Part shown: positions 32,724 to 53,053 of the stretch, piece after piece
How positions within the stretch are numbered: the first letter of the stretch is position 1
Layout: each line of letters begins with the position of its first letter
NCBI RefSeq assembly: GCF_003989795.1
Contig: NZ_RZHG01000007.1
Span: 124,001 to 188,000 of the forward strand
Source: Vreelandella andesensis
Lineage (GTDB): Bacteria > Pseudomonadota > Gammaproteobacteria > Pseudomonadales > Halomonadaceae
Direction: 5' to 3'
Length of the DNA: 64,000 nt
Program-made: the position numbers and the translations under genes
Notes under the pieces: generated by a model
Told to the model about the DNA's origin: nothing
The model's database searches: none
The model's input: the letters and a program-made list of their open reading frames with translations, nothing else

Positions 32724-34397
32724 ATGGCCCAAAAGACAAATGATCAGATAATTCTTGAGCAGATAATCAAGGAACGATGTGCTGAGTCTGGCGATGAACT
32801 GACCCTGTCGGAGTATTTCGAGATATATTCTGCATCAGAAATACTTAAGAATTATGACCTTACCTATGATGACATTTTCTATGGGATAGTAGGTGATGGT
32901 GGGGATGGTGGAATTGATTCAATCTATACCTTTATAAATGGCGAGCCATTAAAAGAAGATACGCCAGTAAATACCAACCAGAAAAAGAACCATATTGAAC
33001 TGATTATAATTCAATCGAAGACTTCGGCCTCCTTTAAAGAGGATGCTGTAATAAAATTCAGAGAGTCAGCTCAAGATTTGTTTAACTTGGCGAATAATCC
33101 AGACGATTATGCTGCACGCTACAATGCTGATCTGATTGATAAGGTTAAGCTTTTTAGAGATTTATATGCAAAGTTAGCAAAGACATTTCCAAAAATCGAA
33201 ATACGATATTTTTATGCTACGCAGGGCGATGACGTGCACCATAATGTGTCAGGGAAAGTGTCAAAGCTTCAAGAAGATATTGTAAAAATGTTTGGTGGTG
33301 CTGAATTTTCATTTGAATTTATAGGTGCGTCTGAACTTCTTGAGATGACTAGGAATGTACCGTCTACTTCGAGAGTGCTTGAGGTTGCGGAGTCACCAAT
33401 TGGCACAACTGCCGGTAGTTATCTATGCCTAGTTAGTCTGTCTAAATACTACGAGTTCATATCTGATTCTGGGTCGTTGGCACGCAGTATATTCGAATCG
33501 AATGTTCGAGATTATCAGGGTAGCGTTGTAGTCAATACGGGAATAAGGAAGACACTTGAGAATAAAGAATCAGAAAACTTTTGGTATCTGAATAATGGCG
33601 TAACTATTATTACCCCTAAAGCAGTAATGGCAGGAAAACAACTTACAATTGAAGATCCTCAAATTGTTAATGGGCTGCAGACATCACATGAATTATACCA
33701 ATATTTCTCGCAGCTGGAGAATCACGATGGTGATGAAAGAGCCGTGCTTGTAAGAGTGATATGCGAACAAGATGAAGAAGCTAGAGACCGAATTATACGA
33801 GCCACCAACAGTCAAACATCTATTCCGCCTGCTTCACTAAGAAGCTCCGATGACATCCATAGAAATATTGAAGACTTTCTTAAGTCAAACGGTTATTACT
33901 ACGACAGGAAGAAAAATTTTTACAAAAACCAGGGAATGCCAGTTGCTAAGATCATAAGTATTTCTTATATGGCGCAAGCAATGATGGCTATCATGCTTTT
34001 AAAACCTGATAGCGCAAGGGCTCGCCCTTCAACGTTGATAAATTCTGACGTCGAATATAAAAAAATATTTAGCTTAGATAAGCCCATTGATATATACCTC
34101 AAAGCAGTTCAAATAATGAAAGCTGTTGAAGCATACCTGAAGCCAGAAAATTGCGAGATTCAGTTAGAAAGAAAGACTACCACGAATATCAAATTTTATG
34201 TGGCAATGGTGGCTAGTATAAAAATAGCAGGTGCTCATCAAGAAATAGAGCAAAAATTTTCGGAATTACCAAACGTAGATTTATCTAGTGAAATTCTTAG
34301 TGAATCACTTCAACAAGTACTTGCAGAGTTTAATGAATTAGGAGCAACCGACCAAGTTGCAAAGGGGTCGGCTCTTGTAGCCAAACTCCTGAGCTAA
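32724..34397 (+). CDS. AIPR-family abortive-infection protein with Mrr-like nuclease motif
   Basis: 557 residues, AT-rich. The N-terminal ~130 residues carry GDGGDGGID (Asp about 65) and IIQSK (Gln 97, Lys 99), the D...QxK arrangement of Mrr-type PD-(D/E)XK nucleases. The AIPR domain covers about 230-500, with FWYLNNGVTIITPKA, QIVNGLQTSHEL and the RATNSQTSIPPASLR block. AIPR proteins are linked to phage resistance. No methyltransferase or partner is in the same cassette, so it may act alone or with the HEPN-like neighbour. Its stop codon is inside the following attC. Confidence 0.88.
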   Translation: MAQKTNDQIILEQIIKERCAESGDELTLSEYFEIYSASEILKNYDLTYDDIFYGIVGDGGDGGIDSIYTFINGEPLKEDTPVNTNQKKNHIELIIIQSKTSASFKEDAVIKFRESAQDLFNLANNPDDYAARYNADLIDKVKLFRDLYAKLAKTFPKIEIRYFYATQGDDVHHNVSGKVSKLQEDIVKMFGGAEFSFEFIGASELLEMTRNVPSTSRVLEVAESPIGTTAGSYLCLVSLSKYYEFISDSGSLARSIFESNVRDYQGSVVVNTGIRKTLENKESENFWYLNNGVTIITPKAVMAGKQLTIEDPQIVNGLQTSHELYQYFSQLENHDGDERAVLVRVICEQDEEARDRIIRATNSQTSIPPASLRSSDDIHRNIEDFLKSNGYYYDRKKNFYKNQGMPVAKIISISYMAQAMMAIMLLKPDSARARPSTLINSDVEYKKIFSLDKPIDIYLKAVQIMKAVEAYLKPENCEIQLERKTTTNIKFYVAMVASIKIAGAHQEIEQKFSELPNVDLSSEILSESLQQVLAEFNELGATDQVAKGSALVAKLLS

Positions 34398-38764: not shown

Positions 38765-39487
38765 TTAACGGTGCTGTTTAAACAACCACCACACATCAAA
38801 CCCAAATGAGTAGATAAGGGTTAGTAGCGCACTCAGCGCAAGCAGGCTGGTGGCAAAGGGGGAAGTGAGCGGCGTTAATGCCAGCAGCAGGGCAGCGACT
38901 TGCCAAACGCACACCGCTTTGCGCCGGAAACTTGCAAACAGCGGTGCCTTTAGCCATGGAAACGGCCAGCTAGCGGCAACGAATAAATAGCGCATGCCGC
39001 CAATCAGCAGTACCCAAACGCCCAAATGCTCGCTCTGCAATAAGCCGATGCAGAGTATCAGAATCAATGCCGCATCCAGTTCCATGTCAAAGCGCGCCCC
39101 AAACGGGGTATGGGTGTTTGTGCGTCTGGCAATCCAGCCGTCTACTCCATCTAGTAACAGCGCAATAACGGCCACTGCTAGCCATAGCCAAATCGCATTA
39201 GTAAAAGCATTCGCTGGCAGAGCACCTATTACTATGGCTACTAATACACCGCGTACAAGTGTTACGCGGTTTGCCCAACCTAACGGCCCATAAGGCCAAA
39301 AACTTACTACCAGCGCACTCATTACTAGGTAAAAGCCAGTGGCTAGCCACCAGTTCGCAGCGCTGGCAACCATTGTCGATAGCAGCATGCCCAGGCTAAC
39401 GAGTAATAAGCTAGCCAGCACCGTTTCCGCCAGGGTGTAAACGCGCTTGGGTATTGAGGCACTGGAGGTATTCGAAAAAGAGGACAT
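38765..39487 (-). CDS. CDP-alcohol phosphatidyltransferase family protein
   Basis: About 240 residues with six membrane helices. The diagnostic motif is present: DGVDGWIARRTNTHTPFGAR followed by FDMELDA (D-x2-DG-x2-AR-x8-G-x3-D-x3-D). Such enzymes transfer a phosphoalcohol from a CDP-linked donor to an acceptor alcohol. The chain resembles neither PgsA nor PssA closely, so the acceptor is open. ATG at 39487 is taken; an upstream start would add 36 residues. It diverges from the pterin-type gene cluster and may belong to it. Confidence 0.85.
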   Translation of the reverse strand: MSSFSNTSSASIPKRVYTLAETVLASLLLVSLGMLLSTMVASAANWWLATGFYLVMSALVVSFWPYGPLGWANRVTLVRGVLVAIVIGALPANAFTNAIWLWLAVAVIALLLDGVDGWIARRTNTHTPFGARFDMELDAALILILCIGLLQSEHLGVWVLLIGGMRYLFVAASWPFPWLKAPLFASFRRKAVCVWQVAALLLALTPLTSPFATSLLALSALLTLIYSFGFDVWWLFKQHR

Positions 39488-39697
39488 GCTTACTCGCAAA
39501 GCGGCGCAATGGCCTGCGGTTGAAATAAAATGTGCAATTTTTTTACTATGTACCATTCTTGTATAAGAAGGTAAAGTTGTCCATGATGTGATCACGTTTG
39601 TTTAAAATCATTCAAGCCTTTACATGGGTTAAGCAACCGCTTCGCTTCCTGAGCTACGCTATGAGGATGGATGAAGCATTAACCATAAGGAAATGTC

Positions 39698-40687
39698 ATG
39701 TTGCCGCCTAATACCGCTACGGCTTTTTGGGTGACCCGCCCCCTGCATGGCGAGCTAAAGCAGGAGCCATTAACGTCACCCAGCGAAAATGAGGTGCGGG
39801 TACGTGCCCTTTACAGCGGCGTTAGCCGTGGCACCGAATCGCTGGTGTTTAATTCAAGAGTTCCCGAAAGTGAATACTCGCGTATGCGTGCCCCTTTTCA
39901 GGCGGGCGAATTTCCGTTCCCTGTTAAATATGGTTACTGCAGTATTGGCTATGTGGAGCAAGGGCCAAACTCTCTACTCGATAAAACTGTCTTTTGCCTC
40001 TTTCCGCATCAGGACCACTATGTAGTACCTGCAGACGCTGTTTTGCCGCTCCCCGATGACGTTCCCGCTTACCGTGCAGTGTTAACAGCCAATATGGAAA
40101 CTGCCATTAATGGCGTGTGGGATGCTAACCCCATGCTTGGCGAGCGCATATGTGTGGTCGGTGCAGGTGTTGTTGGTGCGCTTGTGGCCTATCTGTGTGC
40201 GCAAATTCCTGGTGTAGATGTGCGTTTGATCGACATTAACCCCGAGCGAGAACCCTTGGCAACGCATTTAGGCGTCCCTTTCTGTATGCCCGAGCAGGCA
40301 CCCACCGATCAGGACTGTGTGATTCACGCCAGTGGCCAACCAGATGGCCTTCGGCTGGCTATGAGTTTGCTAGGCAACGAAGGCCGCGTGATTGAAATGA
40401 GTTGGTTTGGCCAGGGCGATGTGTTGCTGCCACTTGGTGGCGCTTTTCATTCTCAACGTTTAACGCTTAGCGCCAGCCAAGTAGGGCAGTTGCCTGCCAA
40501 GCTGGTGCCGCGTTGGAATTACCGCCGCCGGTTAGCGCTCGCCCTTCGCTTACTCGCCGACCAGCGGTTAGATGCGCTGATCAGTGGTGAAAGCGATTTT
40601 GCCGATTTTCCAACGCTGGCACCTGCTCTGTTCGGCCCTGGTAGTACAGCGCTTTGTCATCGAATTCGTTACCCATTGCCCGCTTAA
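39698..40687 (+). CDS. BchC-like medium-chain dehydrogenase
   Basis: 329 residues of the MDR superfamily. YSGVSRGTESLVFNSRVPES and AGEFPFPVKYGYCSIGYVEQ resemble the branch containing BchC (bacteriochlorophyllide dehydrogenase). The Cys normally found at the catalytic zinc position is missing in SGVSRGTES, and GAGVVGALVAYLCAQ is the nucleotide loop. It probably oxidises or reduces an alcohol or ketone on a small molecule. The neighbours are pterin and glycosyl-transfer genes, not bacteriochlorophyll genes. First of four rightward genes. Confidence 0.83.
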   Translation: MLPPNTATAFWVTRPLHGELKQEPLTSPSENEVRVRALYSGVSRGTESLVFNSRVPESEYSRMRAPFQAGEFPFPVKYGYCSIGYVEQGPNSLLDKTVFCLFPHQDHYVVPADAVLPLPDDVPAYRAVLTANMETAINGVWDANPMLGERICVVGAGVVGALVAYLCAQIPGVDVRLIDINPEREPLATHLGVPFCMPEQAPTDQDCVIHASGQPDGLRLAMSLLGNEGRVIEMSWFGQGDVLLPLGGAFHSQRLTLSASQVGQLPAKLVPRWNYRRRLALALRLLADQRLDALISGESDFADFPTLAPALFGPGSTALCHRIRYPLPA

Positions 40688-40791
40688 CCAAACATGCTTT
40701 GTTTTTTAGATTTAATGACTTAGCTTTATTTGCTTAGATTTAGTTACTTGAATTTAGTTACTAAGACGTAACCAACACGATAGGAGTGTCT

Positions 40792-41190
40792 ATGTACCGT
40801 TTATGTGTTCGTGACCATTTTATGATTGCCCATAGTTTTAATGGGGAAATATTTGGCCCTGCCCAACGAACCCACGGCGCAACCTATGTGGTTGATGTAG
40901 TGTTTCAACGCCCTGAGCTTGATCAAGACGGACTGGTGATTGATATCGGCTTGGCAAGTGAAACTGTCAAAGAAGTGCTGGCAGACTACAACTACCGCAA
41001 CCTCGATGAAGTGAGCGAATTTACCGGTAAAAACACCACCACAGAGTTTATGGCTAAGGTGATTTTTGACCAGCTAGCCGAGGCCATTAAAGCGGGGAAA
41101 ATGGGCGCCACTGCTCAAGGGCTCACGCACATGGAGATCAAGCTGCATGAGTCTCATGTAGCGTGGGCAAGCTTTGAAGGGGCGCTATGA
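40792..41190 (+). CDS. 6-pyruvoyl/6-carboxy-tetrahydropterin synthase homologue
   Basis: 132 residues of the PTPS/QueD fold. The zinc ligand His in FMIAHSF and the pair in RTHGATYVVDVV are in place, as are the VIDIGLASETVKEVL and ADYNYRNLDEV blocks and a late Glu in MEIKLHES. The catalytic Cys usually found before the second His region is not evident, so the reaction may differ from QueD. No queC, queE or folE lies nearby. ATG at 40792 follows AGGAG; a GTG at 40786 overlaps that site. It overlaps the next gene by four bases. Confidence 0.87.
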   Translation: MYRLCVRDHFMIAHSFNGEIFGPAQRTHGATYVVDVVFQRPELDQDGLVIDIGLASETVKEVLADYNYRNLDEVSEFTGKNTTTEFMAKVIFDQLAEAIKAGKMGATAQGLTHMEIKLHESHVAWASFEGAL

Positions 41191-43187
41191 GTCAGACATG
41201 GACGCTGGTAGTGGCTGGCGATCCTGACCAGCGTACCGGCGGGTACATCTACGATGCCCATATTGTCGCTGCACTGCGCGAACGTGGCCTCTATATCGAT
41301 GTGATGGGGGTGGCGGGGCGTTTTCCGGATGCCGATGATGAGGCTGCCCAGGCGCTTGCCGCAACGCTGGCGACGTTGCCGGATGATGCGCGGGTGATTA
41401 TCGATGGCCTTGCCATGGGGGCGCTACCCGGCGTGGTCGCTGTCCACGCTAAACGTCTTGATATCACTGCACTGCTGCATCACCCGCTGGGGGACGAGCA
41501 GGGCTTGAGTGATAGGGATCAGCAGCGTTTCCACCGAAGTGAACTGCGCGGCCTGGCACATGTGAATAGAGTGATTGTGACCAGTTGCTTTACCGAACGT
41601 CGCGTAAAGGCGTTAGCCGAACACTATGCGCTACCTTTCAGTGCTCCTATCACCGTGGTGGAACCAGGGGTTGTGCGTGCTCCAGTCAGCCCAGCAGCGC
41701 CGCCCAACGAACCTATTCGCCTGTTATGCGTGGCAACGCTGACGCCGCGTAAAGGGCAGGATGTTTTGGTTCAAGCCTTAGCGGGCGTTGAGCGCGGGCA
41801 CTGGCGATGTGACTGCTTTGGCGGTGCGCGTGATGCGGTGTTCACGGAACGCGTTCAAACGCTGATCGACGAACACCAGTTGGGCGACTGGGTTACGCTG
41901 CACGGCGAGTGCGATGGCGCGACCCTGGAGGACGCTTATCAGCATGCCCACGCCCTGGTATTGCCTTCTTGGTATGAAGGTTACGGCATGGTGGTGACCG
42001 AGGCGCTCGCCCACGGTTTGCCGGTTATTACCACCACTGGTGGGGCGCTGCGGGATACGCTGCCCAACGGGGCTGGCATCAGTGTAACGCCTGGTGATGT
42101 TGAGGCGCTGACGAGAGCTCTGGAAAATTTCTGCCATGATGAGGCGCTACGCACTGAACTATGTGCAGGCGCCGCCGCTGCGCGCGGCGGACTAGCTGAC
42201 TGGCAGGCTGCCGGGGTGGCGTTTTCACAGGCGCTAATGCAGCCACCTTCGACATTAACGGCGGGAAGCCAGTTTGCCGCAGATTGGTTATCGCTGCGTG
42301 AAAACGTCGATGTTAACTCACGTAGTCAGGCGCTAGTGGGTGCGCTAGCGAACTGGTTAGACGCTAAATTGTTATCAGAAAATCAACGGCGAGTAGAGCA
42401 CTCGTCGTTAGCAGAATCTTCTCAGTCATCAGCATTTTCGCAACCCATTACGTTGGCAGATCTAGGCTGCGGACGCGGTAGCAATAGCCAGTTTCTTGCG
42501 CCTCGTTTGCACCATGGGCAGCGGTGGATGCTGATTGATCATGACGATGCCTTACTTAACGAAGCCTATTCGCGTACCAGCCAGTTGAGCACAGGCAAAA
42601 GTGAATCGCTACAGGTGGAAACCCACTGTGTCTCTCTTGAAAACATTGATCATCCCGCGCTAACCCATTGCGATGTGGTAACGGCATCTGCACTGATTGA
42701 TCTGGTGTCTCAAGAATGGATTGATGCCTTGGCTGCCCAGTGTGCTAAACACCGGCAAGCACTTCTTATTACCTTAAGCATTACTGGCGAATGGTGCTTT
42801 ACCAATCCTCAACAACAGCCGTTGAATGATCCTGATGATCGTTGGATCAGTGAGCTGTTCAACGCGCATCAGCGGCGAGATAAGGGGTTAGGCGAGGCGC
42901 TAGGGGGCGATGCTCATCAAGCGCTAGTCAGCGCGATGGCTCACTACAATTACCGTGTTAGCGAGGCTGAAACACCGTGGTGCTTAACGGCGGGTAAATC
43001 AGCGCAGTACCCCTTAATGTGCTCGCTGATTGAAGGGTGGGCGAGTGCTGCCACTGAGCAAGCCCCTGGCGCGGCGTCACGTATTGCCCAGTGGCGAGAT
43101 GAACGCCTGCGTAAAGTGGCCGAGGGCAAAATGGGTATTTGGGTGGGGCATCGCGACTTGCTGGCGCTACCAGCGGACGAGGGCTAA
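41187..43187 (+). CDS. fused glycosyltransferase (GT4) - methyltransferase
   Basis: 666 residues. Residues 1-355 form a GT-B glycosyltransferase: an N-terminal TGGYIYDAHIV acceptor loop, LLCVATLTPRKGQDVLVQAL, and the donor-site PSWYEGYGMVVTEALAHG. Residues from about 415 form a class I SAM methyltransferase (LADLGCGRGSNSQFLAPRL motif I). A short linker (about 380-415) joins them. It presumably glycosylates and methylates the same product. It is coupled by ATGA to the PTPS gene, and the flippase gene follows after four bases. Confidence 0.9.
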   Translation: MSQTWTLVVAGDPDQRTGGYIYDAHIVAALRERGLYIDVMGVAGRFPDADDEAAQALAATLATLPDDARVIIDGLAMGALPGVVAVHAKRLDITALLHHPLGDEQGLSDRDQQRFHRSELRGLAHVNRVIVTSCFTERRVKALAEHYALPFSAPITVVEPGVVRAPVSPAAPPNEPIRLLCVATLTPRKGQDVLVQALAGVERGHWRCDCFGGARDAVFTERVQTLIDEHQLGDWVTLHGECDGATLEDAYQHAHALVLPSWYEGYGMVVTEALAHGLPVITTTGGALRDTLPNGAGISVTPGDVEALTRALENFCHDEALRTELCAGAAAARGGLADWQAAGVAFSQALMQPPSTLTAGSQFAADWLSLRENVDVNSRSQALVGALANWLDAKLLSENQRRVEHSSLAESSQSSAFSQPITLADLGCGRGSNSQFLAPRLHHGQRWMLIDHDDALLNEAYSRTSQLSTGKSESLQVETHCVSLENIDHPALTHCDVVTASALIDLVSQEWIDALAAQCAKHRQALLITLSITGEWCFTNPQQQPLNDPDDRWISELFNAHQRRDKGLGEALGGDAHQALVSAMAHYNYRVSEAETPWCLTAGKSAQYPLMCSLIEGWASAATEQAPGAASRIAQWRDERLRKVAEGKMGIWVGHRDLLALPADEG

Positions 43188-43191
43188 CGCG

Positions 43192-45072
43192 ATGCGACTC
43201 TGGCGCTGGCTGAAAATCCCGTGGGTGCAAAAAGGGCTAGTTAGCTTAGGTCTTCTGGCGGTTGTTGCTGTGTGGGTAGAGCCAGACGCTGTAATAGCAC
43301 AAGTGCAGCGTTTCTCGCCGGGCTGGATGGCGCTGGCGCTGTTAATCAGTGTGCTGCAAGTGATGCTGAGTGCGTGGCGCTGGCAATTCACCGCAGGCTT
43401 AATCGACGTGCCGCTGCGCTATCGTTATGCACTGCGAGAGTACTACTTGGCATTGTTAGTCAACCAACTGCTGCCCGGCGGAGTGTTAGGTGATGCCGGT
43501 CGTGCCCATCGTCATGCTCGTCAATCCTCTTCCAAGGGAAGCGCCTGGCGTGCGGTGGTGATTGAGCGTGCGTCCGGGCAACTGGCGATTGCCTTGTACA
43601 CGCTGGTGGCGTTGTTGACGTCGCCACTCTGGATAACAGCTCTGGGTCTGCGTGGTTTGACGATTGTGGCAGGGGTGGTGGGCATCGCGATGGTGATTGG
43701 TGTGACGCTGGGGATTTGGCTGCGCCGTTCGGCGGTAACGCAACCCGCTTGGTGCTCAGCGTTGGGTAGGGATGTGCGCCGTGGACTGTTGCAGCGTGGC
43801 GTCTGGCCGCGGCAATTGCTCTCCTCGCTTTCTATTGTGCTTAGCTACGGCCTTGTAATGGTATGCGCTGCTCGGGCAATCGGAGTGGAGCTGGCAGCGT
43901 TAGATATTTTGGCGCTGGCACCGGTGTTACTGCTCGCCATGTTGGTGCCGCTTTCGATTGCTGGATGGGGGCTGCGTGAAGGTGCCGCTGCGGGCATTTG
44001 GATGTTCGTTGGCTTGCCTTCGGCGCAAGGTGTTGCAATTTCAATGGCTTATGGTGTTTTAGTGCTGGTATCCAGTCTGCCCGGCATTTGGGTAGCGCTG
44101 GCTAGTCGAACACGCGCTGCGCCGCCCAACTCGTCGTCAGGCAGTGAGGCCGCTCAGCAGTACGTCGAACAGCGTGTCGTCGCCACACCGGAAAGAGCGC
44201 ATCGAAGGGCGCAGCGCACTCTCAAGGGTATCGATGGGGGTCATTTGCAATCCAGGTCTGCCGGAGCCGATCAGCAACGGTGCGACCAACAAATGCAGGC
44301 GGTCGACGGTGTTCGCTTCAATAAACTGCGAGACCGTGACGCCACCACCTTCGACCAATACCCGCGTAAGGCCACGCTCCGCCAGCAAGGCAACAACGTC
44401 GGCAGGGTTGAATTGCCCGTTTTTATCCAGCGTCAGCACACAGTGTTCGGCCGTCGTTCGCGCTACCGTTGCCTCTGGCCCAGTGAGGTGCAACGTCGGT
44501 GCGCTAGGCGTGGTGAACAGCGTCAGTTCGGCAGGAACACGGCCACGTGGATCAATCACCACGCGGGTGGGATGCTTACCCGACACATGACGTACGGTGA
44601 GCTGGGGGTTATCAGCACTCGCCGTGCCCGCGCCAATCACCACGGCATCTGCCAGCGCTCGCAGCCGGTGCAGGTGCACCAAACTTTCAAAGCCATTGAT
44701 GTAGTGGGAATGCCCACTTTCCGTGGCGATGCGCCCATCCAGGCTTTGCCCCAGTTGGGCAACCACCCAGCTCGAATGACGCACCAGTGGCAGCAAACAC
44801 GTCAGCAACGTCTGAGCAGCACTTGTCACAGAGTAAGGGGAGTGCCAGTCGCCGTGAGAATCAAAGCTAATGGTGACGTCACTTTTAATGCCCTGTTGAG
44901 CGTCCAGCAGCCATGCCCACGCTTGGTCGATATCAATCGTCATTTCATTGGTGTTAGGCATGGTATCTCCACTCAAAAAACAGCAACCCATCATGCGGGG
45001 CCATGTTGCCCGACGCAAGCAAACGTTGTCCGCCCCAACAGGCAACTTGGAGGCCTACATGTATCACATTGA
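43192..45072 (+). CDS. flippase-like membrane protein (LPG-synthase TM / UPF0104), frame runs on antisense to the RibD-like gene
   Basis: The first ~310 residues are a multi-pass protein of the lysylphosphatidylglycerol-synthase TM family. LALLVNQLLPGGVLGDAGRA and PLSIAGWGLREGAAAGIWMF are hallmark segments, and there are about eight helices. After about 44120 the frame loses family character. It continues without a stop to 45072, exactly antisense to the RibD-like gene, giving a basic, low-quality tail. The natural end was probably near 44147, where a TGA sits in a neighbouring frame. A lost stop, frameshift or sequencing error is likely. The start is the ATG at 43192, four bases after the preceding gene. 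Confidence 0.75.
   Translation: MRLWRWLKIPWVQKGLVSLGLLAVVAVWVEPDAVIAQVQRFSPGWMALALLISVLQVMLSAWRWQFTAGLIDVPLRYRYALREYYLALLVNQLLPGGVLGDAGRAHRHARQSSSKGSAWRAVVIERASGQLAIALYTLVALLTSPLWITALGLRGLTIVAGVVGIAMVIGVTLGIWLRRSAVTQPAWCSALGRDVRRGLLQRGVWPRQLLSSLSIVLSYGLVMVCAARAIGVELAALDILALAPVLLLAMLVPLSIAGWGLREGAAAGIWMFVGLPSAQGVAISMAYGVLVLVSSLPGIWVALASRTRAAPPNSSSGSEAAQQYVEQRVVATPERAHRRAQRTLKGIDGGHLQSRSAGADQQRCDQQMQAVDGVRFNKLRDRDATTFDQYPRKATLRQQGNNVGRVELPVFIQRQHTVFGRRSRYRCLWPSEVQRRCARRGEQRQFGRNTATWINHHAGGMLTRHMTYGELGVISTRRARANHHGICQRSQPVQVHQTFKAIDVVGMPTFRGDAPIQALPQLGNHPARMTHQWQQTRQQRLSSTCHRVRGVPVAVRIKANGDVTFNALLSVQQPCPRLVDINRHFIGVRHGISTQKTATHHAGPCCPTQANVVRPNRQLGGLHVSH
44137..44961 (-). CDS. RibD C-terminal-type (DHFR-like) reductase
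   Basis: About 274 residues. Residues ~85-270 are the RibD reductase domain: AQLGQSLDGRIATESGHSHY, RALADAVVIGAGTASADNPQ and RVLVEGGGVT match the NADPH- and substrate-binding blocks. The deaminase domain of riboflavin RibD is absent; the first ~80 residues are unrecognised. It would reduce a ribosyl-aminopyrimidine side chain, as in riboflavin and related routes. ATG at 44961 has GGAGATACC before it. It diverges from the GTP cyclohydrolase gene (97 bases between starts), which suggests joint control. Confidence 0.88.
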   Translation of the reverse strand: MPNTNEMTIDIDQAWAWLLDAQQGIKSDVTISFDSHGDWHSPYSVTSAAQTLLTCLLPLVRHSSWVVAQLGQSLDGRIATESGHSHYINGFESLVHLHRLRALADAVVIGAGTASADNPQLTVRHVSGKHPTRVVIDPRGRVPAELTLFTTPSAPTLHLTGPEATVARTTAEHCVLTLDKNGQFNPADVVALLAERGLTRVLVEGGGVTVSQFIEANTVDRLHLLVAPLLIGSGRPGLQMTPIDTLESALRPSMRSFRCGDDTLFDVLLSGLTA

Positions 45073-46165
45073 ACGCGCTATTTTCGATATTCGCCGCGGC
45101 TTGCCCGTCGTCATCAATACCGGAGAGCGACGCCTGTTGGTGCAGGCACTTGAAGGCAGTGTCTCAGTAGATTCACTGGCAACACTTTCCGGCTCACGGC
45201 CAGCGCTGGTGCTAACGCGTCATCGTTTGGAAGCCCTGGGCATGTCATTAAAAGCGGATGCGGCTTGCTTACCGCTCACCGAGCAAATCAGTGAGCGTGA
45301 TTTGCATTATCTTGCTGTTTCTCATGATGCATCTAAGATTTCTCATTCACTGTTAAGTGGGCTGAAACCTGCGGGTGTCGGAGAGCGAGGTGCGGTAGCA
45401 CTAATGCGTCGCGCGCTACTGATACCCGCTGCGCTGTGCGCTGAGGTAAGTGAAGCATCAGCCGATCATATTGCCCAGCAGCTATCGAAAGGGGAACTGT
45501 TAGAGGTTAATGCCCGGGATGCAGAGAAGTGTTTAGCCGGTGCGCCGGGGATGCTAAAGCGAGTAAGCGAAGCGCGTATTCCTCTTGAAGATGCACCTGA
45601 GAGCCGCTTCGTGCTGTTTCGCGAACCTGATGGCCTGCGAGAACACGTGGCCGTGGTGATTGGCGATCTGGACGCCATTCCTGAGGCGGTTCCTTTGCGC
45701 ATGCACTCGGCTTGTCTCACTGGTGACCTATTCGGCAGCCTGCGCTGTGACTGCGGTGAGCAGCTGCGCAATGCGGTGGCCGATATTCAAGCCATGGGGG
45801 GCGGTGTGTTGCTCTATTTGGCACAAGAAGGGCGGGGAATTGGCCTAGCCAATAAACTGCGCGCTTACACGCTGCAGGATGGTGGTTTAGATACCGTCGA
45901 TGCTGACCAAGTGCTGGGGTTTGGCGAAGATGAGCGTCAGTACGCTGTCGCGGTGGATATGCTTAATGCGCTTGGGGTAAATAAGGTTCAGCTGTTGACT
46001 AACAACCCGCTAAAAATGGCAGCCCTGCGTGAAGGCGGTATTGAGATTGTCTCGCGCCAAGCGCTCTATGGCAGCGTGACTGACCACAATCATCGCTACC
46101 TAAGTGCCAAAGCCAACCGGGCAGGGCATTTCTTAGATGAGGTGCTTGAAGGGCGTGGGCGTTAA
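45059..46165 (+). CDS. GTP cyclohydrolase II with atypical N-terminal domain
   Basis: 368 residues. The C-terminal half (about 185-368) is GTP cyclohydrolase II: HSACLTGDLFGSLRCDCGEQ gives the three zinc Cys, LYLAQEGRGIGL the catalytic region, and LLTNNPLKMAAL the end. It makes 2,5-diamino-6-ribosylamino-pyrimidinone phosphate from GTP. The first ~160 residues faintly resemble a DHBP synthase (RibB) layout (FDIRRGLPVVINTGERR) but lack its acidic active-site signature. This makes it unlike housekeeping RibA or RibBA. ATG at 45059 with TTGGAGG upstream. Confidence 0.92.
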   Translation: MYHIERAIFDIRRGLPVVINTGERRLLVQALEGSVSVDSLATLSGSRPALVLTRHRLEALGMSLKADAACLPLTEQISERDLHYLAVSHDASKISHSLLSGLKPAGVGERGAVALMRRALLIPAALCAEVSEASADHIAQQLSKGELLEVNARDAEKCLAGAPGMLKRVSEARIPLEDAPESRFVLFREPDGLREHVAVVIGDLDAIPEAVPLRMHSACLTGDLFGSLRCDCGEQLRNAVADIQAMGGGVLLYLAQEGRGIGLANKLRAYTLQDGGLDTVDADQVLGFGEDERQYAVAVDMLNALGVNKVQLLTNNPLKMAALREGGIEIVSRQALYGSVTDHNHRYLSAKANRAGHFLDEVLEGRGR

Positions 46166-46950
46166 TTCACCGTTTTACGTGTAGAGAGCGGCGGCAGGTG
46201 GGCGGTTTCAGCCACCACCTGCGCCAATTGGGTGGCGTAGTGAGCCACAAGCCGTTCACCCAGTGCGTGGTGAGCACCCGTCGCATCACCGGCAACGCCA
46301 AACATACTGAGGTCTTCGGCAAGCCAGGCAAAGGCAGCGCTACCCTCTGGGCTGACCAAGGCGCCACCTTCAGGCGTTGCCGGTGAAGTAGGTTGGTAGC
46401 TGTCGAGTTGCACCAACTCAGGCGCTAAATGCAGCATGATGGCGGTTTCCAGTAAACCACCATGCAAACCATAGCGCAGCTCATCGGCTCCGATAGCGCC
46501 TTCCAGGGGCGGAAGGCGTGTATAGGTGGCTTTCACCACGCGCATCTCAAACTGCTGGCGCAGGGTCAAGGCGGCAAGGTCCATCACCGCTTTATTTCCT
46601 CCGTGGCTATTAATTAACACCAGCTTTTTTATACCTGCACGGGCCACACTCGCGCCATAAGCCTCTAACGTCGCGATGGCGAGCGGGGCGGGCAGACTGA
46701 GTGTTCCTGGAAAACTGGCGTGTTCGTCGCTTGCGCCGACGGCAATTGCTGGCAGGCAAAACACATCGAGCGCTGGGTCGATCAGGTCCAGCATGGCAGC
46801 TTGTAACCCTTCCCCAATGATCAGGTCAGTGCCCAGAGGCAGATGCGTACCGTGCTGTTCAATTGCCCCTAGGGTGATCACTGCGACTGGATCACCATTG
46901 GCAATCGTAGCGAGCTGGGGGGCGGTGAGGGTTTGCCAGTGATAAATCAT
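46162..46950 (-). CDS. creatininase-family amidohydrolase
   Basis: 262 residues. Metal ligands are visible in GAIEQHGTHLPLGTD (Glu, His and Asp), INSHGGNKAV (His) and GLHGGLLETA (Glu). The family includes creatininase, MftE and the archaeal formamide hydrolase ArfB, which deformylates a GTP-derived pyrimidine. Beside a GTP cyclohydrolase II and a RibD-type reductase, an ArfB-like role is the most economical reading. It is convergent with the cyclohydrolase (four-base overlap) and 23 bases after fkbM in the same direction, so it may be read from the opg operon. Confidence 0.88.
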   Translation of the reverse strand: MIYHWQTLTAPQLATIANGDPVAVITLGAIEQHGTHLPLGTDLIIGEGLQAAMLDLIDPALDVFCLPAIAVGASDEHASFPGTLSLPAPLAIATLEAYGASVARAGIKKLVLINSHGGNKAVMDLAALTLRQQFEMRVVKATYTRLPPLEGAIGADELRYGLHGGLLETAIMLHLAPELVQLDSYQPTSPATPEGGALVSPEGSAAFAWLAEDLSMFGVAGDATGAHHALGERLVAHYATQLAQVVAETAHLPPLSTRKTVN

Positions 46951-46973: not shown

Positions 46974-47756
46974 TTAAGCCGATGCGTTTACTAACGGGTG
47001 GTCGACGCGACAGGCGTAAAGATCCCCGGACGCCAGTCCGTCAACGCCATCGTTGAGCCACTGGGTGATTGCTTCAGGGGATTGCCAGGTTTCCCAGCGA
47101 AAACGGCGTTGTTCACCGGCAATCGCATTGAAGCGATAGTCGCCAAGGCGTTTCAGTTGGTCAACGCAGGCATGGCTAACCTCTAACACGCCTGCAACAA
47201 ACTCCACTGAAAGCGCCGCAACGGGGTGATTCAACCCCATTAGTACCTCTGCTTCAAACCCTTCCACATCAATTTTGATGAAGCTTGGTTCGCCGTAAGT
47301 GGCGATGAGCTGGTCGAGGGTAGTGACTTCCACCCTTAGCTGCTGTTCCCAGCGTATGTGTTGAAAGCCGGGGTTTCGCTCGCCAACCTGATGACGCCAG
47401 TCGGTCGCTAAGGTGGAGAGCGTTGGGTTGCCAACGCTTATGGCAATATCCGCATGACCAGGCTGTGGCCCGGCGGCCAAGGGTAAGAGTGTGATGTTAG
47501 GTCGATTAAGTATCCGTTTAAACCATTTGGCCAGTGCTGGCTGTGGCTCAAGCGCTACTACTTTGGCACCTAGTGCGTGGAAGGCGGCACTGCGGTCGCC
47601 TAAGTGAGCCCCAATATCAAAGGCGATATCACCCGGTTGAATAAATGAACGATATAGGCGCTGCAGGCCCCGCTGCCTTCCTGGCCGCCAGTAGACAAAC
47701 AGTGAGCGTGCCATGCCACTAGAACTGCGCAACCGTTGCAAAAAAGCAGAAGGCAT
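46974..47756 (-). CDS. FkbM-family methyltransferase
   Basis: 260 residues. DIGAHLGDRSAAF (SAM motif I), VVALEPQPALAKW and the FkbM hallmark FIKIDVEGFEAEVLMGL are clear. FkbM enzymes O-methylate sugars or small molecules. Its ATG overlaps the opgH stop by one base (TAATG), so it is translated with the glucan genes and may methylate the periplasmic glucan or an envelope sugar. A link to the adjacent pterin-type cluster is also possible. Confidence 0.9.
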   Translation of the reverse strand: MPSAFLQRLRSSSGMARSLFVYWRPGRQRGLQRLYRSFIQPGDIAFDIGAHLGDRSAAFHALGAKVVALEPQPALAKWFKRILNRPNITLLPLAAGPQPGHADIAISVGNPTLSTLATDWRHQVGERNPGFQHIRWEQQLRVEVTTLDQLIATYGEPSFIKIDVEGFEAEVLMGLNHPVAALSVEFVAGVLEVSHACVDQLKRLGDYRFNAIAGEQRRFRWETWQSPEAITQWLNDGVDGLASGDLYACRVDHPLVNASA

Positions 47757-49729
47757 TAGTAAGGCTCCTTAACAGAGGGTGCATGCGTGGCGGTTGTTTG
47801 AACGTAATCTCGAAACGACTGGCAGGGCATATCGCCTAGCTGCTCTTGAGGAACTGCCAGTGGCAAGGGCGGGGGAGATAACGTGGCACTGGATTGATGG
47901 CTATTGCTTTCTAAGGCGGCAAAGTCCTTCAAAAGCGGCGGTTGTTGTGCTGAACTTGGCGTTTGCAGTAAGCCGAACTTCCGACTAACAACGCCTCCCC
48001 AGGTGGCGCTGCTAGAATATTTCACTAACGGAGCGGCACCGATCAACCCAAGCCAAGCGGGCGTTAACCAACCAAATGCTGAGGGAGAGAAAAGCATCAT
48101 GGTGCCTGCCCAAGCAACACCGCACAGTGTCATCCATCCTGTGTGGTGCCATGTCTCGCCCCAACTTAGTGAACGTTCCCCGCGGTGCTGGGTTTGCCAG
48201 TCAATGGCTCGGCCAGTTAGCACGTTAATGATAAATAAGCTATGCCACGCCATCATCAGCGGTGCAATCAGAGCAGCAAACAGAATTTCCAATACCGTGC
48301 TAGTGATAAGCGTTAGTCGCCCTCCATAAGCATGGGGACACTGCCAAAATGTCAGTAACAGACCAAGCAGCTTAGGGGCAATCAGCATGCCCAGCGTTAC
48401 GCTCAGCAGTCCCAGTGATAGCGCTTTAGGCAACAAGGGGCTCGAGGTGGTGTCGATGGCTTGATAGCCCACCATAAGACTGGTGCAAAGCAAAAGTCCA
48501 AGCCAAACAAGCGAAGAAATATAAGCAAACGCGCCAAACAAAAAGTGCAGCCGGCTAATCGGGTGAAAACCGGCGCCGGTCAGTAAGCGTAAGTGCTGTA
48601 GGTTGCCTTGAAGCCAGCGGCGGTCACGCTTGGCAAAATCGAGCATATTGCTTGGCATCGCTTCAAAGCTATTGTGTGACGCGCTGGCGTAAGGGTTGTG
48701 GCGCGACACGGCGGTGGACGCAGAAGTATCCAGCAGTACCTGCCAGCCGCCTCGTTTGAGCAGTGCCGCTTCGACGAAATCGTGGCTTAAGAGTTCGCCC
48801 CCTAGCGGTGGCTTACCCGAAAGGGTAGGTAATCCTGCGTGGGCCATAAATGCCCGCGTACGAATAATCGCATTGTGCCCCCAGTAATTCGCTGCATCGC
48901 CCTGCCAGAAGCTTTGGCCGGCTGCCAGCATGGGGCTATAGAGTGCCGAAGCTAGTTGGGTGAAACGGCCAAATAACGTGCGTTGGCCAACCGGGATAGG
49001 CACCGTTTGAATAAGGCCTACGCTGGGCTGGCGTTGCATGCGGTGTACTAAGTGCAGCAGTGTGGCGCCACTCATCAAGCTGTCGGCATCAAGCACGACC
49101 ATGTAGTCGTAACGGCGGCCCCAGCGTCGGCAGAACTCTGCGATGTTGCCAGCTTTGCGGCCATCATTATTAGGGCGTCGACGATAATAAATGGCTATCT
49201 GCCCGGCAAGACGCTGTTGCAAGGCGGCCACATGAGCCGCTTCGACGTCTGCCATTGCCGCATCTTGGGTATCACTTAATACAAACACATCAAAGTGCTT
49301 GTGGATAGCACTGGGCGTGCCTGCACCATACTCTTTTGCTTGTTGTAAAAGTGAGCGGCATGTTGCTTCCAGTCCCGCGATGGTGGGAATGGGCGGTTCT
49401 GCATAAATCGGCATTACCAGCGCGGTGCGGCTTACTAGCAGGCTGGCACTGGGGGATGTAATGGTTTGGCGGCGCAAGCTTAGGGGGTCACGGCGTAGTG
49501 CGCAGAGCACAAAGCCACATAGTGCCCCCCAGAAAGCCAGCGCTATCCAGCTAAACGTGAATGCAAACAGTATCAGCATGGTGAGTTGCCAACCAATGGC
49601 CAGATTGGCAACGACCTTTGCCATTGCGATACAGCCACCAACGCTTGTGGATAATACCGCAACCGCCAGAAAAGCTCGGCGCCCGTTTAGCCATGGCATC
49701 GAAGGCCGTAACGCGTGGAGGTCAGGCAT
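47756..49729 (-). CDS. opgH: glucan biosynthesis glucosyltransferase H
   Basis: About 657 residues, GT2 family with about seven membrane helices. LDADSLMSG (D-x-D), QGDAANYWGHNAIIR and RRWLQGNLQHLRLL (QxxRW-type) are the processive glucosyltransferase motifs. It polymerises beta-1,2-glucan from UDP-glucose across the inner membrane. It lacks most of the long N-terminal cytosolic region of the E. coli enzyme (847 residues). The ATG at 49729 overlaps the opgG stop by eight bases; a TTG at 49777 in frame is less likely. Confidence 0.92.
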   Translation of the reverse strand: MPDLHALRPSMPWLNGRRAFLAVAVLSTSVGGCIAMAKVVANLAIGWQLTMLILFAFTFSWIALAFWGALCGFVLCALRRDPLSLRRQTITSPSASLLVSRTALVMPIYAEPPIPTIAGLEATCRSLLQQAKEYGAGTPSAIHKHFDVFVLSDTQDAAMADVEAAHVAALQQRLAGQIAIYYRRRPNNDGRKAGNIAEFCRRWGRRYDYMVVLDADSLMSGATLLHLVHRMQRQPSVGLIQTVPIPVGQRTLFGRFTQLASALYSPMLAAGQSFWQGDAANYWGHNAIIRTRAFMAHAGLPTLSGKPPLGGELLSHDFVEAALLKRGGWQVLLDTSASTAVSRHNPYASASHNSFEAMPSNMLDFAKRDRRWLQGNLQHLRLLTGAGFHPISRLHFLFGAFAYISSLVWLGLLLCTSLMVGYQAIDTTSSPLLPKALSLGLLSVTLGMLIAPKLLGLLLTFWQCPHAYGGRLTLITSTVLEILFAALIAPLMMAWHSLFIINVLTGRAIDWQTQHRGERSLSWGETWHHTGWMTLCGVAWAGTMMLFSPSAFGWLTPAWLGLIGAAPLVKYSSSATWGGVVSRKFGLLQTPSSAQQPPLLKDFAALESNSHQSSATLSPPPLPLAVPQEQLGDMPCQSFRDYVQTTATHAPSVKEPY

Positions 49730-51248
49730 CGGGATACCACACGTAGTTCCAGGTTTCAGTGATAGGGTCTCCTTCAACCATCAGGCGCAACCGAATATCA
49801 CTAGGCTCGCTGCTAGGGGGTAATCGGAAAGTGGCTCGTCGTCCGTTATTGGGTAATGTTTTGACTTGAGGGAGTGATACCTCGCCATTAAGCACGCTGA
49901 TGTCCAGCTCAATGGTGTCGCTTGAAGAAAGTGTACCCAGCTTGCCGCCTTGGAAATCGACAACAAATTGCCGCTGATCAGCAGACGGGGAATCGGCCTC
50001 ACCTGGAACCGCGGCGTTACCATGACGGGTACGCACTACCTTGCCCAGCGCATTAGCTTCGGGCTGTTCATTGAGCGTAAACGTTCGATAGCGAAGATGG
50101 CGAGACTCGCCAGCACTGAGCGTATCCCCGGACACCCAGTAAGCTACTATGTTGTCGTGGGTTTCATCTGGCGTCGGAATTTCCACTAGCTCTACATGAC
50201 CTGGCCCCCAGTCATCAAGAGGTTCGACCCACTGGCTGGGGCGGCGATGGTAATGGGCTTCAAGATCCAAGTAGCGGCCAAAGTCGCGTTCTCGCTGCAT
50301 TAAACCAAACCCAGTGGGGCTATCATCCATAAACGCTGATACGCGAACCGACGAGGGGTTTTGCAATGGACGCCAAATCCATTCGTCAGCACCTGTTTGA
50401 ATCAGTAAGCCATCAGAATCATGTACTTGGGGGCGGAAGTCATCTGGCCGCTCGGCGCTCATTTGCCCGAAGGCAAACATACTAGTAAGAGGAGCAATAC
50501 CCAGTTTTTCTATGTCAGCGCGGGCAAACAAGGTTGCTTCTACGTCGGCTTCCGTGTTTTCGCCCGGCGTTAACGTAATGCGATAGGCGCCACTTAACGA
50601 AGGGCTATCCATTAATGCCAAGAACGTGACACTGTTGGAATGTGAGTCAGGCTTGTAAAGCCAGAATTCGCGAAATTCAGGAAACTCCTCGCCACTGGCT
50701 AACGCGGTATCAATGGCTAGTCCGCGTGTAGAAAGGCCGTACGCTTGGTCGCGCCCAATCAAGCGAAAGTAGCTTGCCCCAAGAAAAACAGCGAACTCAT
50801 CGGCATAATCATCGTTGTTAATGGGGTAGTGCAGCCTAAAGCCAGCATGACCAATTCCCGTTAAGTCGTGCTCTAATAAGCGGCTGGCATCACCATCGTA
50901 CTGAAAGTCATCTGTCGTGAAAGAGAGTGGATGAACGTCTCCATTCTCGATCACATTAATAGTGACAGGCGTTTGGAAGATAAACCCGCTGTGGAATAGC
51001 TGCATACTGAAAGGGCTTTCATCTTGCCAGTAGGCGCGCTCGGGCTTAAAACGGATTTGTCGGTATAGGTCGTAGTTTAAAGATTCCAAAGCGCTTGGAA
51101 GCGAAGCCTCTGGTGCTTGGTAAGGTGCATCAGCTAGTGTTTGAGCGCGTTCAATTACGTGGTCGAAAACATCATCATTAGCAACTGCGCCAACGGCGAT
51201 CAGGCAATTAAATGACAACAACCATCTTGCAGCGGTACGAATACTCAT
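49722..51248 (-). CDS. opgG: periplasmic glucan biosynthesis protein G
   Basis: 508 residues with a signal peptide (cleavage near AVAND, about residue 24) and the OpgG/MdoG beta-sandwich. FDHVIERAQTLADAPYQAP, QIRFKPERAYW and YGLSTRGLAIDTA are family motifs. It adds branches to, or processes, the glucan backbone in the periplasm. First gene of opgG-opgH-fkbM(-creatininase). Osmoregulated glucans are normally made at low osmolarity, so their place in a halophile is notable. Confidence 0.94.
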   Translation of the reverse strand: MSIRTAARWLLSFNCLIAVGAVANDDVFDHVIERAQTLADAPYQAPEASLPSALESLNYDLYRQIRFKPERAYWQDESPFSMQLFHSGFIFQTPVTINVIENGDVHPLSFTTDDFQYDGDASRLLEHDLTGIGHAGFRLHYPINNDDYADEFAVFLGASYFRLIGRDQAYGLSTRGLAIDTALASGEEFPEFREFWLYKPDSHSNSVTFLALMDSPSLSGAYRITLTPGENTEADVEATLFARADIEKLGIAPLTSMFAFGQMSAERPDDFRPQVHDSDGLLIQTGADEWIWRPLQNPSSVRVSAFMDDSPTGFGLMQRERDFGRYLDLEAHYHRRPSQWVEPLDDWGPGHVELVEIPTPDETHDNIVAYWVSGDTLSAGESRHLRYRTFTLNEQPEANALGKVVRTRHGNAAVPGEADSPSADQRQFVVDFQGGKLGTLSSSDTIELDISVLNGEVSLPQVKTLPNNGRRATFRLPPSSEPSDIRLRLMVEGDPITETWNYVWYPDA

Positions 51249-51424: not shown

Positions 51425-53053
51425 ATGATTCGACTTCTACTCACATGTATAACGCTCAACTTTCTGCTGGTAGTGCCGCTTTGGTGGCGCTTTAACGAGA
51501 TAGGCTCCCCTTTGATTGCTTGGGAAGCATGGGTTATTGCACCTGCCATGTTGCTGGTTCCCCCAAGCTACTTCCGTCGCTGGCTGGCCATCTTAATAGT
51601 AGGTTGGCTTGCGTTAGTAACGGCAGCTAATCTAGGCGACGCGGCGACACACACCGCGTTTGGCCGATCACTAAACCTCTATTTGGACGTGCCGTTGGTA
51701 CGCTCTATCTACCATTTGTTAATAGGTAATGTAGGACAACTGGCCGCAACTTTCCTGATGTTGTTGGGCAGCGTAGTTTTATTAGGTGTTTTATGGGTGA
51801 TGCTACGGTTGCTGTTACCTGCGCAACATTTACCGGTTTGGCGGACTACCGGAATCCTTGCCATCCTGATAACGATCTCTGCGACAGGGTTTGCGTTTTC
51901 TGAAGCCAACGGCAAACGATTGATTGCTAAATCAACGTTGCCTGCTGTCAACACCACGCGTTTCCAGTGGGAGCAGATCGTGGCGACGCATCAGGCAAGA
52001 AAGGCTTTCGCAAAGCAGCTTGAAAGTACACCTTTACAACCAAGATCACTACCTGGTTTGTTAGGGCGCAACGTCTTATTAACTTTTATTGAATCTTATG
52101 GTGTATCGGCGATTAATAATCCGCGTTACAGCGGCGTTTTACTCCCAACGTTAGATGATATACAGCAACGGCTCGGCCAAAGAGAATTACATGTTGTTTC
52201 TGGGTTGCTTGAAGCGCCTATACGGGGAGGTCAGTCATGGCTTGCCCATGCAACGGTACTCAGCGGGCGCTGGATTGATAACCAGCTATGGTATCGGCTA
52301 ATGCTGGAAAGCGATCATTCAACATTGATTGATGATTTTAGTAACACCGGGCAGCGGACGCTCAGCGTCATGCCGGCGATTACGATGGCTTGGCCAGAAG
52401 GGGTTGCCTATGGTTTTGACGAGATTGCAGCAGCAAAAGATATTCCCTATGCCGGGCCGCCGCTGAACTGGGTCACAATGCCAGACCAATTTACGTTGGA
52501 CTATACCCAGCGACATTTGCTGGGTGATACGCCGGTATTCGCGCAGCTTGCGCTTATCTCTAGCCATGCGCCTTGGACACCAATTCTGCCTGTTCTTGAA
52601 GATTGGTCGTTGATTGACGATGGGCGTATTTTCGCTCCCTGGGAAACGGCAGGTGACCCGCCAGAAGTGCTTTGGCAGGATATCGAGCGCATTCGTGATC
52701 ATTACGCGTGGTCAATAGACTACGCTGTGAAAGTTACCGGGCGTTGGGCCGAGCGGGTGGTTGATGACAACACCTTACTGATTGTATTGGGTGATCATCA
52801 GGCTGCACCGCTGATTACCGGCGATAACGCCAGCGCTGCGGTTCCCGTGCATGTGATTAGCGGGAACCCTAGTCTGTTAGCCCCTTTTAAGGTTCGCGGT
52901 TTTATTGATGGCATGCTGCCAGCACTGGAAAACCCAGATGATGCCGAGAAAATGAGCCAACTGCGCCATTGGTTGCAGCAAGACTTTGGCACGTCAATGT
53001 CTGATGCGTCTTCAGTAACCACGTCTTTAGTTACAACAGAGAAAGCACCATGA
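51425..53053 (+). CDS. membrane sulfatase-fold phosphoalcohol transferase (OpgB/LtaS-like)
   Basis: 542 residues. Four to five N-terminal membrane helices (to about 165) precede an extracytoplasmic alkaline-phosphatase-superfamily domain. LLTFIESYG carries the metal-binding Glu, GGQSWLAHATVLSG holds the likely nucleophile, and LIVLGDHQAAPLI the Asp-His metal ligands. Such enzymes move phosphoglycerol or phosphoethanolamine from lipids to glycans. Divergent from opgGH, it is a candidate for decorating the glucan, as OpgB does. It is coupled to manC by a four-base overlap. Confidence 0.85.
   Translation: MIRLLLTCITLNFLLVVPLWWRFNEIGSPLIAWEAWVIAPAMLLVPPSYFRRWLAILIVGWLALVTAANLGDAATHTAFGRSLNLYLDVPLVRSIYHLLIGNVGQLAATFLMLLGSVVLLGVLWVMLRLLLPAQHLPVWRTTGILAILITISATGFAFSEANGKRLIAKSTLPAVNTTRFQWEQIVATHQARKAFAKQLESTPLQPRSLPGLLGRNVLLTFIESYGVSAINNPRYSGVLLPTLDDIQQRLGQRELHVVSGLLEAPIRGGQSWLAHATVLSGRWIDNQLWYRLMLESDHSTLIDDFSNTGQRTLSVMPAITMAWPEGVAYGFDEIAAAKDIPYAGPPLNWVTMPDQFTLDYTQRHLLGDTPVFAQLALISSHAPWTPILPVLEDWSLIDDGRIFAPWETAGDPPEVLWQDIERIRDHYAWSIDYAVKVTGRWAERVVDDNTLLIVLGDHQAAPLITGDNASAAVPVHVISGNPSLLAPFKVRGFIDGMLPALENPDDAEKMSQLRHWLQQDFGTSMSDASSVTTSLVTTEKAP

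Follow-up and report, generated by a model that had tools for sequence, protein, structure and literature searches.

A 64,000-nucleotide stretch of the Vreelandella andesensis genome (GCF_003989795.1, 3.9 Mb; NZ_RZHG01000007.1, positions 124,001-188,000 of the forward strand), here called the window and used for all positions, carries a gene cassette built around a protein of the 6-pyruvoyl-tetrahydropterin synthase (PTPS) family that belongs to the group PTPS-IV. We observed that the order dehydrogenase, PTPS-IV, GT4 glycosyltransferase, methyltransferase is kept, orientation included, in 81 of 84 fully flanked PTPS-IV loci. The cassette is real, widespread and without a characterised role. 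Its genes, up to nine in number, probably build a GTP-derived pterin- or pyrimidine-like molecule, and the product may carry a sugar decoration and a tie to the membrane. The reading that we lean towards is a biosynthetic cassette whose GTP-derived pterin or pyrimidine would be methylated, glycosylated and, where the genes are present, joined to a lipid, with an added antisense bridge in the Halomonadaceae. Gene identities were taken from Pfam and NCBIfam profile searches of the open reading frames (ORFs) of the window, together with relatives found by profile in the PDB.

38765-39490, minus strand: CDP-alcohol phosphatidyltransferase family enzyme (Pfam CDP-OH_P_transf, 8e-16; the ORF opens at 39595, and relatives suggest a start at Met36, near 39490)
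39698-40687, plus strand: BchC-like MDR dehydrogenase (TIGR01202, 44.6 bits against a cut-off of 291)
40792-41190, plus strand: PTPS-IV protein with the FGPAQ signature (Pfam PTPS, 1e-25)
41187-43187, plus strand: GT4 glycosyltransferase fused to an S-adenosylmethionine methyltransferase (Pfam; methyltransferase domain 1e-6)
43192-45072, plus strand: LPG_synthase_TM flippase-like gene (Pfam, 1e-38; stop-free ORF 43030-45072)
44137-44961, minus strand: RibD_C-type reductase, embedded antisense, without a deaminase domain (RibD_C, 3e-40)
44084-45072, plus strand: antisense bridge, a stop-free frame of about 330 codons opposite the reductase (ORF reading)
45059-46165, plus strand: GTP cyclohydrolase II (GCHII; Pfam GTP_cyclohydro2, 1e-55; N-terminal half outside the Pfam domain)
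46162-46950, minus strand: creatininase-family amidohydrolase (Pfam, 9e-61)
46974-47756, minus strand: FkbM-family methyltransferase (Pfam, 5e-18)
47756-49777, minus strand: OpgH/MdoH-type membrane glucosyltransferase (NF003958, 669.9 bits against a cut-off of 419)
49722-51248, minus strand: OpgG/MdoG (Pfam, 8e-186)
51425-53053, plus strand: membrane enzyme with a sulfatase/alkaline-phosphatase-type domain (weak Pfam Sulfatase match, below cut-off)
53050-54459, plus strand: ManC, GDP-mannose pyrophosphorylase/isomerase (TIGR01479, 665 bits against a cut-off of 373)

To place the cassette among its relatives, we took 107 loci, all picked by PTPS similarity, and dropped three known duplicates; the two source sets may have further species in common. 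The 84 fully flanked loci have at least 7.5 kb on each side, and neighbours were counted within 7.6 kb. This showed the dehydrogenase in all 84 loci, GT4 in 83, the methyltransferase in 82 and the reductase in 72, followed by the CDP-alcohol transferase (64), the flippase (54), GCHII (46) and the creatininase (42). Less frequent were FkbM (28), the sulfatase-like enzyme (15), OpgH (11), OpgG (1) and ManC (0), although counts at the OpgG and ManC end are too low because these outermost genes lie farther out in Halomonas. The scan of named genomes gave at least 587 stretches encoding a relative, and among the best 80, fetched for the census, cassettes occur in Pseudomonadota, Actinomycetota (15 loci), Gemmatimonadota (5) and Acidobacteriota (3), the last two entirely as metagenome-assembled genomes. 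Among the matches listed, the nearest cassettes are those of Vreelandella and Halomonas, and PTPS at E≤1e-20 was found in 27 of 398 genomes drawn from the phylum.

These data show that the clustering is not by chance. A lack of conserved clustering in other genomes, which would have counted against the sequence-only reading of this DNA, was looked for and not found. As controls, the 20-kb region round the genome's other RibD matched only the reductase model among the cassette models, and the tandem-PTPS region of the source genome matched none of them. Distances between cassette proteins correlate (r 0.57-0.92, with no control for the species tree). The dehydrogenase also lies beside PTPS-IV in 15 of the 18 plasmid loci fetched (20 plasmid records matched PTPS-IV; near-duplicates H3 and H11 were left out). 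Rhizobiaceae plasmids hold most of the set, including GCHII, the CDP-alcohol transferase, the flippase, the sulfatase and a cytochrome b, and OpgH adjoins the dehydrogenase in Methylosinus and Neorhizobium plasmids and in other Pseudomonadota. Halomonas-type loci and L084-L086 encode GT4 and the methyltransferase in a single ORF; many others have them as separate neighbouring genes.

The sequence-only reading had also listed eight genes, and all of them are present by profile. Its end point at 46950 was too short, as FkbM, OpgH, OpgG, the sulfatase-like enzyme and ManC continue the locus to 54459. FkbM, OpgG, the sulfatase-like enzyme and ManC stand at the equivalent place in L039 and L040, two relatives from the same genus. 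Neither of the two yielded OpgH, which is present in relatives L041 and L077. OpgG is the sole copy found by a search of the source genome itself.

Several observations weigh against our reading. Within 7.6 kb, the CDP-alcohol transferase is missing in 20 of the 84 loci, the flippase in 30, GCHII in 38 and the reductase in 12, and three Streptomyces linear plasmids (L182, L183, L198) have PTPS-IV without the cassette. Since the transferase and flippase are missing in many loci, membrane attachment cannot be a universal output. In those three Streptomyces plasmids, PTPS-IV lies near cupin and MBL-fold genes, with a MEKHLA-domain gene in two of the three. The 15 actinomycete loci, some of them cut by contig ends, split into five with the reductase alone (L137, L156, L165, L172, L176), eight with the creatininase alone (L146, L159, L160, L163, L166, L167, L173, L179), two with neither and none with both, and the Streptomyces globisporus plasmid locus L196 has the two together. 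One contig (L103) with a Halomonas-like cassette, its PTPS 89% identical to that of the window, comes from a metagenome-assembled genome labelled Rhodovulum and is possibly a binning error.

Next, we set out the case for primary metabolism. GCHII and RibD_C belong to riboflavin families, PTPS to a queuosine/folate family, and the genes could be spare copies for riboflavin, folate or queuosine metabolism that are adjacent by chance. We searched the genome for four families and found members of each outside the locus. PF00925 occurs in three places and RibD_C in two, one of each at the locus, with the further copies on C20 and C11; tandem PTPS lies on C33 and GTP cyclohydrolase I on C21. In addition, the cassette reductase is without a deaminase domain, its PTPS has lost the catalytic Cys and one zinc His, and the set clusters across phyla with GT4, methyltransferase and dehydrogenase genes. 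The spare-copy explanation is thus very improbable: gene copies in the four families, residues and clustering largely refute it, and the earlier proposal of a dedicated locus apart from riboflavin and folate synthesis holds.

A role in making F420 or another deazaflavin was weighed in the same way. In its favour are an unpublished remark on archaeal PTPS-IV, carried in the accessible part of PMC5041015, and an F420-dependent-type oxidoreductase gene near one Streptomyces cassette. However, the source genome gave no CofD match, which disfavours an F420 role in this organism, and apart from that Streptomyces neighbour no product name pointing to F420 was seen in 13 annotated plasmid stretches. 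We regard this role, too, as scarcely credible.

We then examined the residues of the PTPS-IV protein. F21, G22, P23, A24 and Q25, the FGPAQ signature, are invariant in 22 of 22 aligned members. In the same 22, Ala occupies the Cys position as well as that of the second HGH His, giving the motif A-x3-HGA, and Glu120 is invariant. We take the replaced positions to be the catalytic Cys and a zinc-ligand His, and Glu120 to be the pterin-binding Glu. Because the catalytic Cys and zinc His are lost, PTPS-IV is not expected to do PTPS chemistry, and the earlier idea that this protein acts on dihydroneopterin triphosphate is not supported. It probably binds a pterin-like ring without that chemistry, judging from the residues kept. 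Its profile matches the solved structure 3d7j (SCO6650) with E 1.5e-60. Catalytic PTPS and QueD proteins have the motifs CxxxHGH and CxxxxxHGH, according to the part of PMC5041015 that is accessible, and the Cys before HGH and the His zinc ligands that define catalytic PTPS/QueD are not all present in the 22 aligned members. As far as PMC5445326 (2017) is accessible, it gives FGPAQ as the signature of the PTPS-IV group in COG0720 and reports that PF00925 and PF01872 adjoin 561 PTPS-IV sequences; it labels PF00925 GTP cyclohydrolase I/FolE2, where the Pfam name is GTP_cyclohydro2. Both families are found at the locus in the window.

The other enzymes fit chemistry on GTP-derived pyrimidines. 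GCHII matches E. coli RibA (2bz0, E 1e-50), and Cys219, Cys230, Cys232 and Tyr253 are kept in 57 of 57 cluster GCHIIs. In GTP cyclohydrolase II the three Cys are zinc ligands and the Tyr is catalytic; the catalytic residues are intact. The closest PDB relatives of the reductase are 6p8c (a 2,5-diamino-6-ribosylamino-pyrimidinone phosphate reductase) and 2azn. The reductase has no deaminase domain and no deaminase was recognised among the recurrent neighbour families, which were partly scanned; this suggests that the 2-amino group of the pyrimidine stays. In a tree of 56 cluster GCHII rows plus 23 others, a single clade (support 98/93) takes in 42 of the cluster rows, but the cluster GCHIIs as a whole are not one clade and the cluster label takes four changes, which counts against our reading. 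A single origin is unsupported, and GCHII was therefore probably recruited more than once.

The dehydrogenase is an MDR dehydrogenase with weak BchC similarity; its TIGR01202 score is far short of the cut-off, and its best PDB matches are L-iditol dehydrogenase and ketose reductase. The solved profile relatives of the GT4 domain include MshA and PimB-type enzymes, and the methyltransferase has a single weak solved relative (E 0.006). The creatininase had been suggested as an ArfB-type hydrolase, a suggestion that fails at 25.6 bits against the NF033501 cut-off of 180; its solved relatives are creatininases, its scores fall below the MftE, creatininase and ArfB cut-offs, and both ArfB and MftE were rejected as identities. 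CDP-alcohol phosphatidyltransferases share the motif D-x2-D-G-x2-A-R-x8-G-x3-D-x3-D, and each catalytic-motif residue is at least 95% conserved in 81 homologues of the cassette enzyme. Among solved structures it comes closest to CDP-alcohol phosphotransferases (best E 8e-8), and it scores far below the cut-off of every NCBIfam equivalog. In the sulfatase-like protein, E223, S271, D457 and H458 are invariant in 26 members, 19 of which match Pfam Sulfatase; no solved relative at E≤0.5 and no NCBIfam model matched. A function as a phospho-headgroup transferase is possible for this membrane enzyme.

Taken together, the gene content suggests a route. GCHII would convert GTP to 2,5-diamino-6-ribosylamino-pyrimidinone 5'-phosphate, and the deaminase-free reductase would yield a ribityl-diaminopyrimidinone phosphate that keeps its 2-amino group, a pterin-like pyrimidine. 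The BchC-like dehydrogenase could then oxidise the side chain at C2', which would prepare it to condense with the 5-amino group. In principle, this oxidation and condensation would give a 7,8-dihydropterin without GTP cyclohydrolase I. PTPS-IV, with its kept Glu (pterin-binding in relatives), would hold the product and may close the pterin ring; the methyltransferase would add a methyl group and GT4 a sugar. Where present, the CDP-alcohol transferase would join the product to a phospholipid and the LPG_TM protein would carry the lipid-joined product to the other side of the membrane; the sulfatase-like enzyme may transfer a phospho-headgroup to an OpgGH-type periplasmic glucan. The steps of methyl and sugar transfer, phospholipid joining, flipping and glucan transfer are inferred from families and neighbourhood. 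The genome has GTP cyclohydrolase I; therefore a dihydropterin would need a further reason to exist, and an open pyrimidine, or a different ring, is equally possible. The product class itself is likely, and the glycosylation and membrane delivery proposed earlier would fit the gene content.

The lipid-type genes bear on whether the product is anchored. Across the 84 loci, 53 have both the CDP-alcohol transferase and the flippase, 11 the transferase alone, one the flippase alone and 19 neither within 7.6 kb (co-occurrence p 2.8e-10, with no phylogenetic correction). In two Rhodobacterales plasmids the genes for dehydrogenase, PTPS-IV, methyltransferase and reductase adjoin, and transferase and flippase are both missing. 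The last two observations, the 19 loci with neither gene and these plasmids, would suit a cassette whose product, a pterin or pyrimidine glycoside, is soluble, secreted or stored, with the lipid-type genes as accessories that serve something else. In contrast, the transferase and flippase are associated where present, and the distances of both track those seen in the four core proteins (r 0.78-0.92, again uncontrolled for the species tree). We consider the soluble product unlikely, and prefer lipid joining in those loci that have the genes. In the Rhodobacterales cassettes L189 and L194, ribokinase/PfkB-type kinase genes lie nearby and no GT4 stands between PTPS and the methyltransferase.

Recurrent neighbour families were grouped across 109 loci (three duplicates included), with ORFs overlapping known genes excluded, since antisense shadow ORFs otherwise dominate. 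YceI-type genes were grouped in 19 of the 109 loci and cytochrome b561-type genes in 8, with two members of each checked by Pfam. Genes of these two types lie beside the cassette in L150 (7477-8145), L098 (7439-8059) and L142 (5027-5590). A more specific and rather doubtful extension of our reading is that a membrane-anchored glycosylated pterin would serve as a periplasmic redox cofactor, with cytochrome b561 and YceI proteins as electron partners, and could be passed to periplasmic glucans, the Halomonadaceae wiring being a stop-free antisense frame selected for translatability more than for protein sequence.

We observed that the flippase frame in the window remains stop-free to 45072, 14 bases into GCHII, and so takes in the entire reductase gene, which lies on the opposite strand. 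The layout resembles that of a noncontiguous operon, with LPG_TM and GCHII on one strand and the reductase between them on the other. The window reductase has no TTA, CTA or TCA codon, the three that read as stops in antisense, and the flippase frame is open through the reductase in 21 of 21 same-genus genomes having it. In 18 Halomonas-type loci, selected for a frame running through the reductase, 0 of 779 reductase Leu/Ser codons are TTA, CTA or TCA, compared to 11-17% in eight other genes there. Other A-ending codons in the reductase are mostly normal; GCA is the lowest, and third-position GC content is the highest of nine genes (0.762 vs 0.675-0.734).

An unselected set gave the same picture. 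Among 151 same-family genomes, 90 bear the reductase, 78 of them with GCHII downstream in the fetched stretch and 12, from three genera, without; codons were counted over the RibD_C-matching part, and totals are sums over per-genome rows. The 78 genomes have 2 stop-complement codons in 3078 Leu/Ser codons, and the 12 have 35 in 483. No antisense stop occurs in 77 of the 78 and in 1 of the 12 (Fisher p 3e-12, uncorrected for kinship). When each genus was represented by its first listed genome, the expectation was 37.2 antisense stops; the 2 observed both lie in G589. Within genus g2, two genomes with GCHII have 0 stops and eight without have 19 in 302. General codon bias was rejected as the cause, as the same reductase has the three codons where GCHII is absent. 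Of the 77 stop-free genomes with GCHII, 45 have the frame fused to the flippase, 29 have it as a separate ORF and 3 have no flippase called. A Shine-Dalgarno-like start near the flippase stop was found for 27 of the 29 separate ORFs, compared to 0 of 11 genomes with the flippase and without GCHII.

Some data do not fit a bridge so well. G589 has GCHII and yet has two antisense stops, with no flippase called in front; the fused frame of g307 covers merely 65-93% of the reductase ORF; and just 46 of the 77 genomes have the end of the frame between -25 and +15 relative to the GCHII start. Avoidance is also confined in lineage. A group of 22 embedded Halomonadaceae loci, which shares members with the sets above, had 0 antisense stops against 95.8 expected, whereas 19 other-lineage loci with the same reductase/GCHII layout had 29 against 23.1 expected and so no avoidance. 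Other-lineage loci without GCHII had 49 against 49.7. Stop avoidance as a general outcome of the embedded layout was rejected, as it was not seen outside Halomonadaceae.

It is possible, if somewhat unlikely, that the antisense frame codes for a functional protein under ordinary selection and is not merely a translated bridge. The own start with a Shine-Dalgarno-like sequence in the separate cases agrees with this. So does a comparison of fourfold synonymous sites, which in the reductase are the first codon positions of the antisense frame: among nine genes, similarity at these sites is highest in the reductase, at 0.489 vs 0.407-0.470. A codon-shuffle control gave a mixed answer for the reductase excess against two comparison genes. 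In g293 the reductase lies above both (0.460 vs 0.363 and 0.436), but in g1 it is about equal (0.152 vs 0.125 and 0.151) and in g4 between or below (0.194 vs 0.192 and 0.316); in the GCHII-less genomes of g2 it is 0.251 vs 0.241. Selection on the antisense protein sequence thus appears at most weak. Openness and initiation, for their part, look selected. As a sequence pattern of Halomonadaceae, the antisense bridge is well supported, and it suggests that the stop-free frame is a translated bridge to GCHII: ribosomes past the flippase would run antisense through the reductase, keeping GCHII coupled to the operon.

Elsewhere in the window, an AIPR-domain protein (32724-34397) matches the PADLOC model AbiU at 1e-206 and is an abortive-infection candidate; it adjoins a gene at 31328-32569 that lacks a family assignment.

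In conclusion, the core order is kept across phyla and the product is not known, which points to a missing metabolite class, and the cassette would give context to the solved but functionally unassigned structure 3d7j. If our reading is true, the product would connect the chemistry of pterins with membrane lipids and with periplasmic glucans, and we know of no pathway that does so. The antisense bridge is a clean example, open to testing, of how selection may act on whether the strand facing a conserved gene can be translated, and bears on whether antisense translation in bacteria is functional. In the literature searched, with most subscription papers outside reach, we found no description of the whole cassette or its product and recognised no paper on a translated antisense bridge. 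The PF00925/PF01872 neighbourhood has been in print since 2017 (PMC5445326, in its accessible part), and the antisense pattern in Halomonadaceae is new here.

In comparison to the PTPS-IV group as presented in the accessible text of PMC5445326 (SCO6650, 3d7j), the cassette has in common the FGPAQ signature, the PF00925 and PF01872 neighbours and a solved close relative; to this we add the pathway model and the links with dehydrogenase, GT4, methyltransferase, CDP-alcohol transferase, flippase, OpgGH and cytochrome genes. With the early steps of riboflavin and F420 synthesis it shares the expected chemistry of GCHII and a diaminopyrimidine reductase, but its reductase is without the deaminase domain, its genome is without a CofD match and its other downstream enzymes differ. 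In cyanobacteria and green sulfur bacteria, a nucleotide-sugar glycosyltransferase acts on pterin to make pterin glycosides. The GT4 step of the cassette would be analogous, whereas the route there starts from GTP cyclohydrolase I; to our knowledge, no lipid-type genes are associated with those glycosides. The osmoregulated periplasmic glucan system, to which OpgB also belongs, has OpgH (here above cut-off) and OpgG in common with the locus, and here OpgGH stands beside pterin-type genes. E. coli O157:H7 reportedly has long antisense overlapping genes, such as pop opposite ompA; these too are long ORFs embedded opposite a known gene, but the cassette frame joins two genes of one operon and has been kept in many genera. 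Finally, the noncontiguous operon, in the accessible part of PMC7154746, likewise has an opposite-strand gene inside a row of same-strand genes; its internal region is described there as untranslated, whereas in the Halomonadaceae cassette this region is kept open, mostly with a start signal where the frame is separate.

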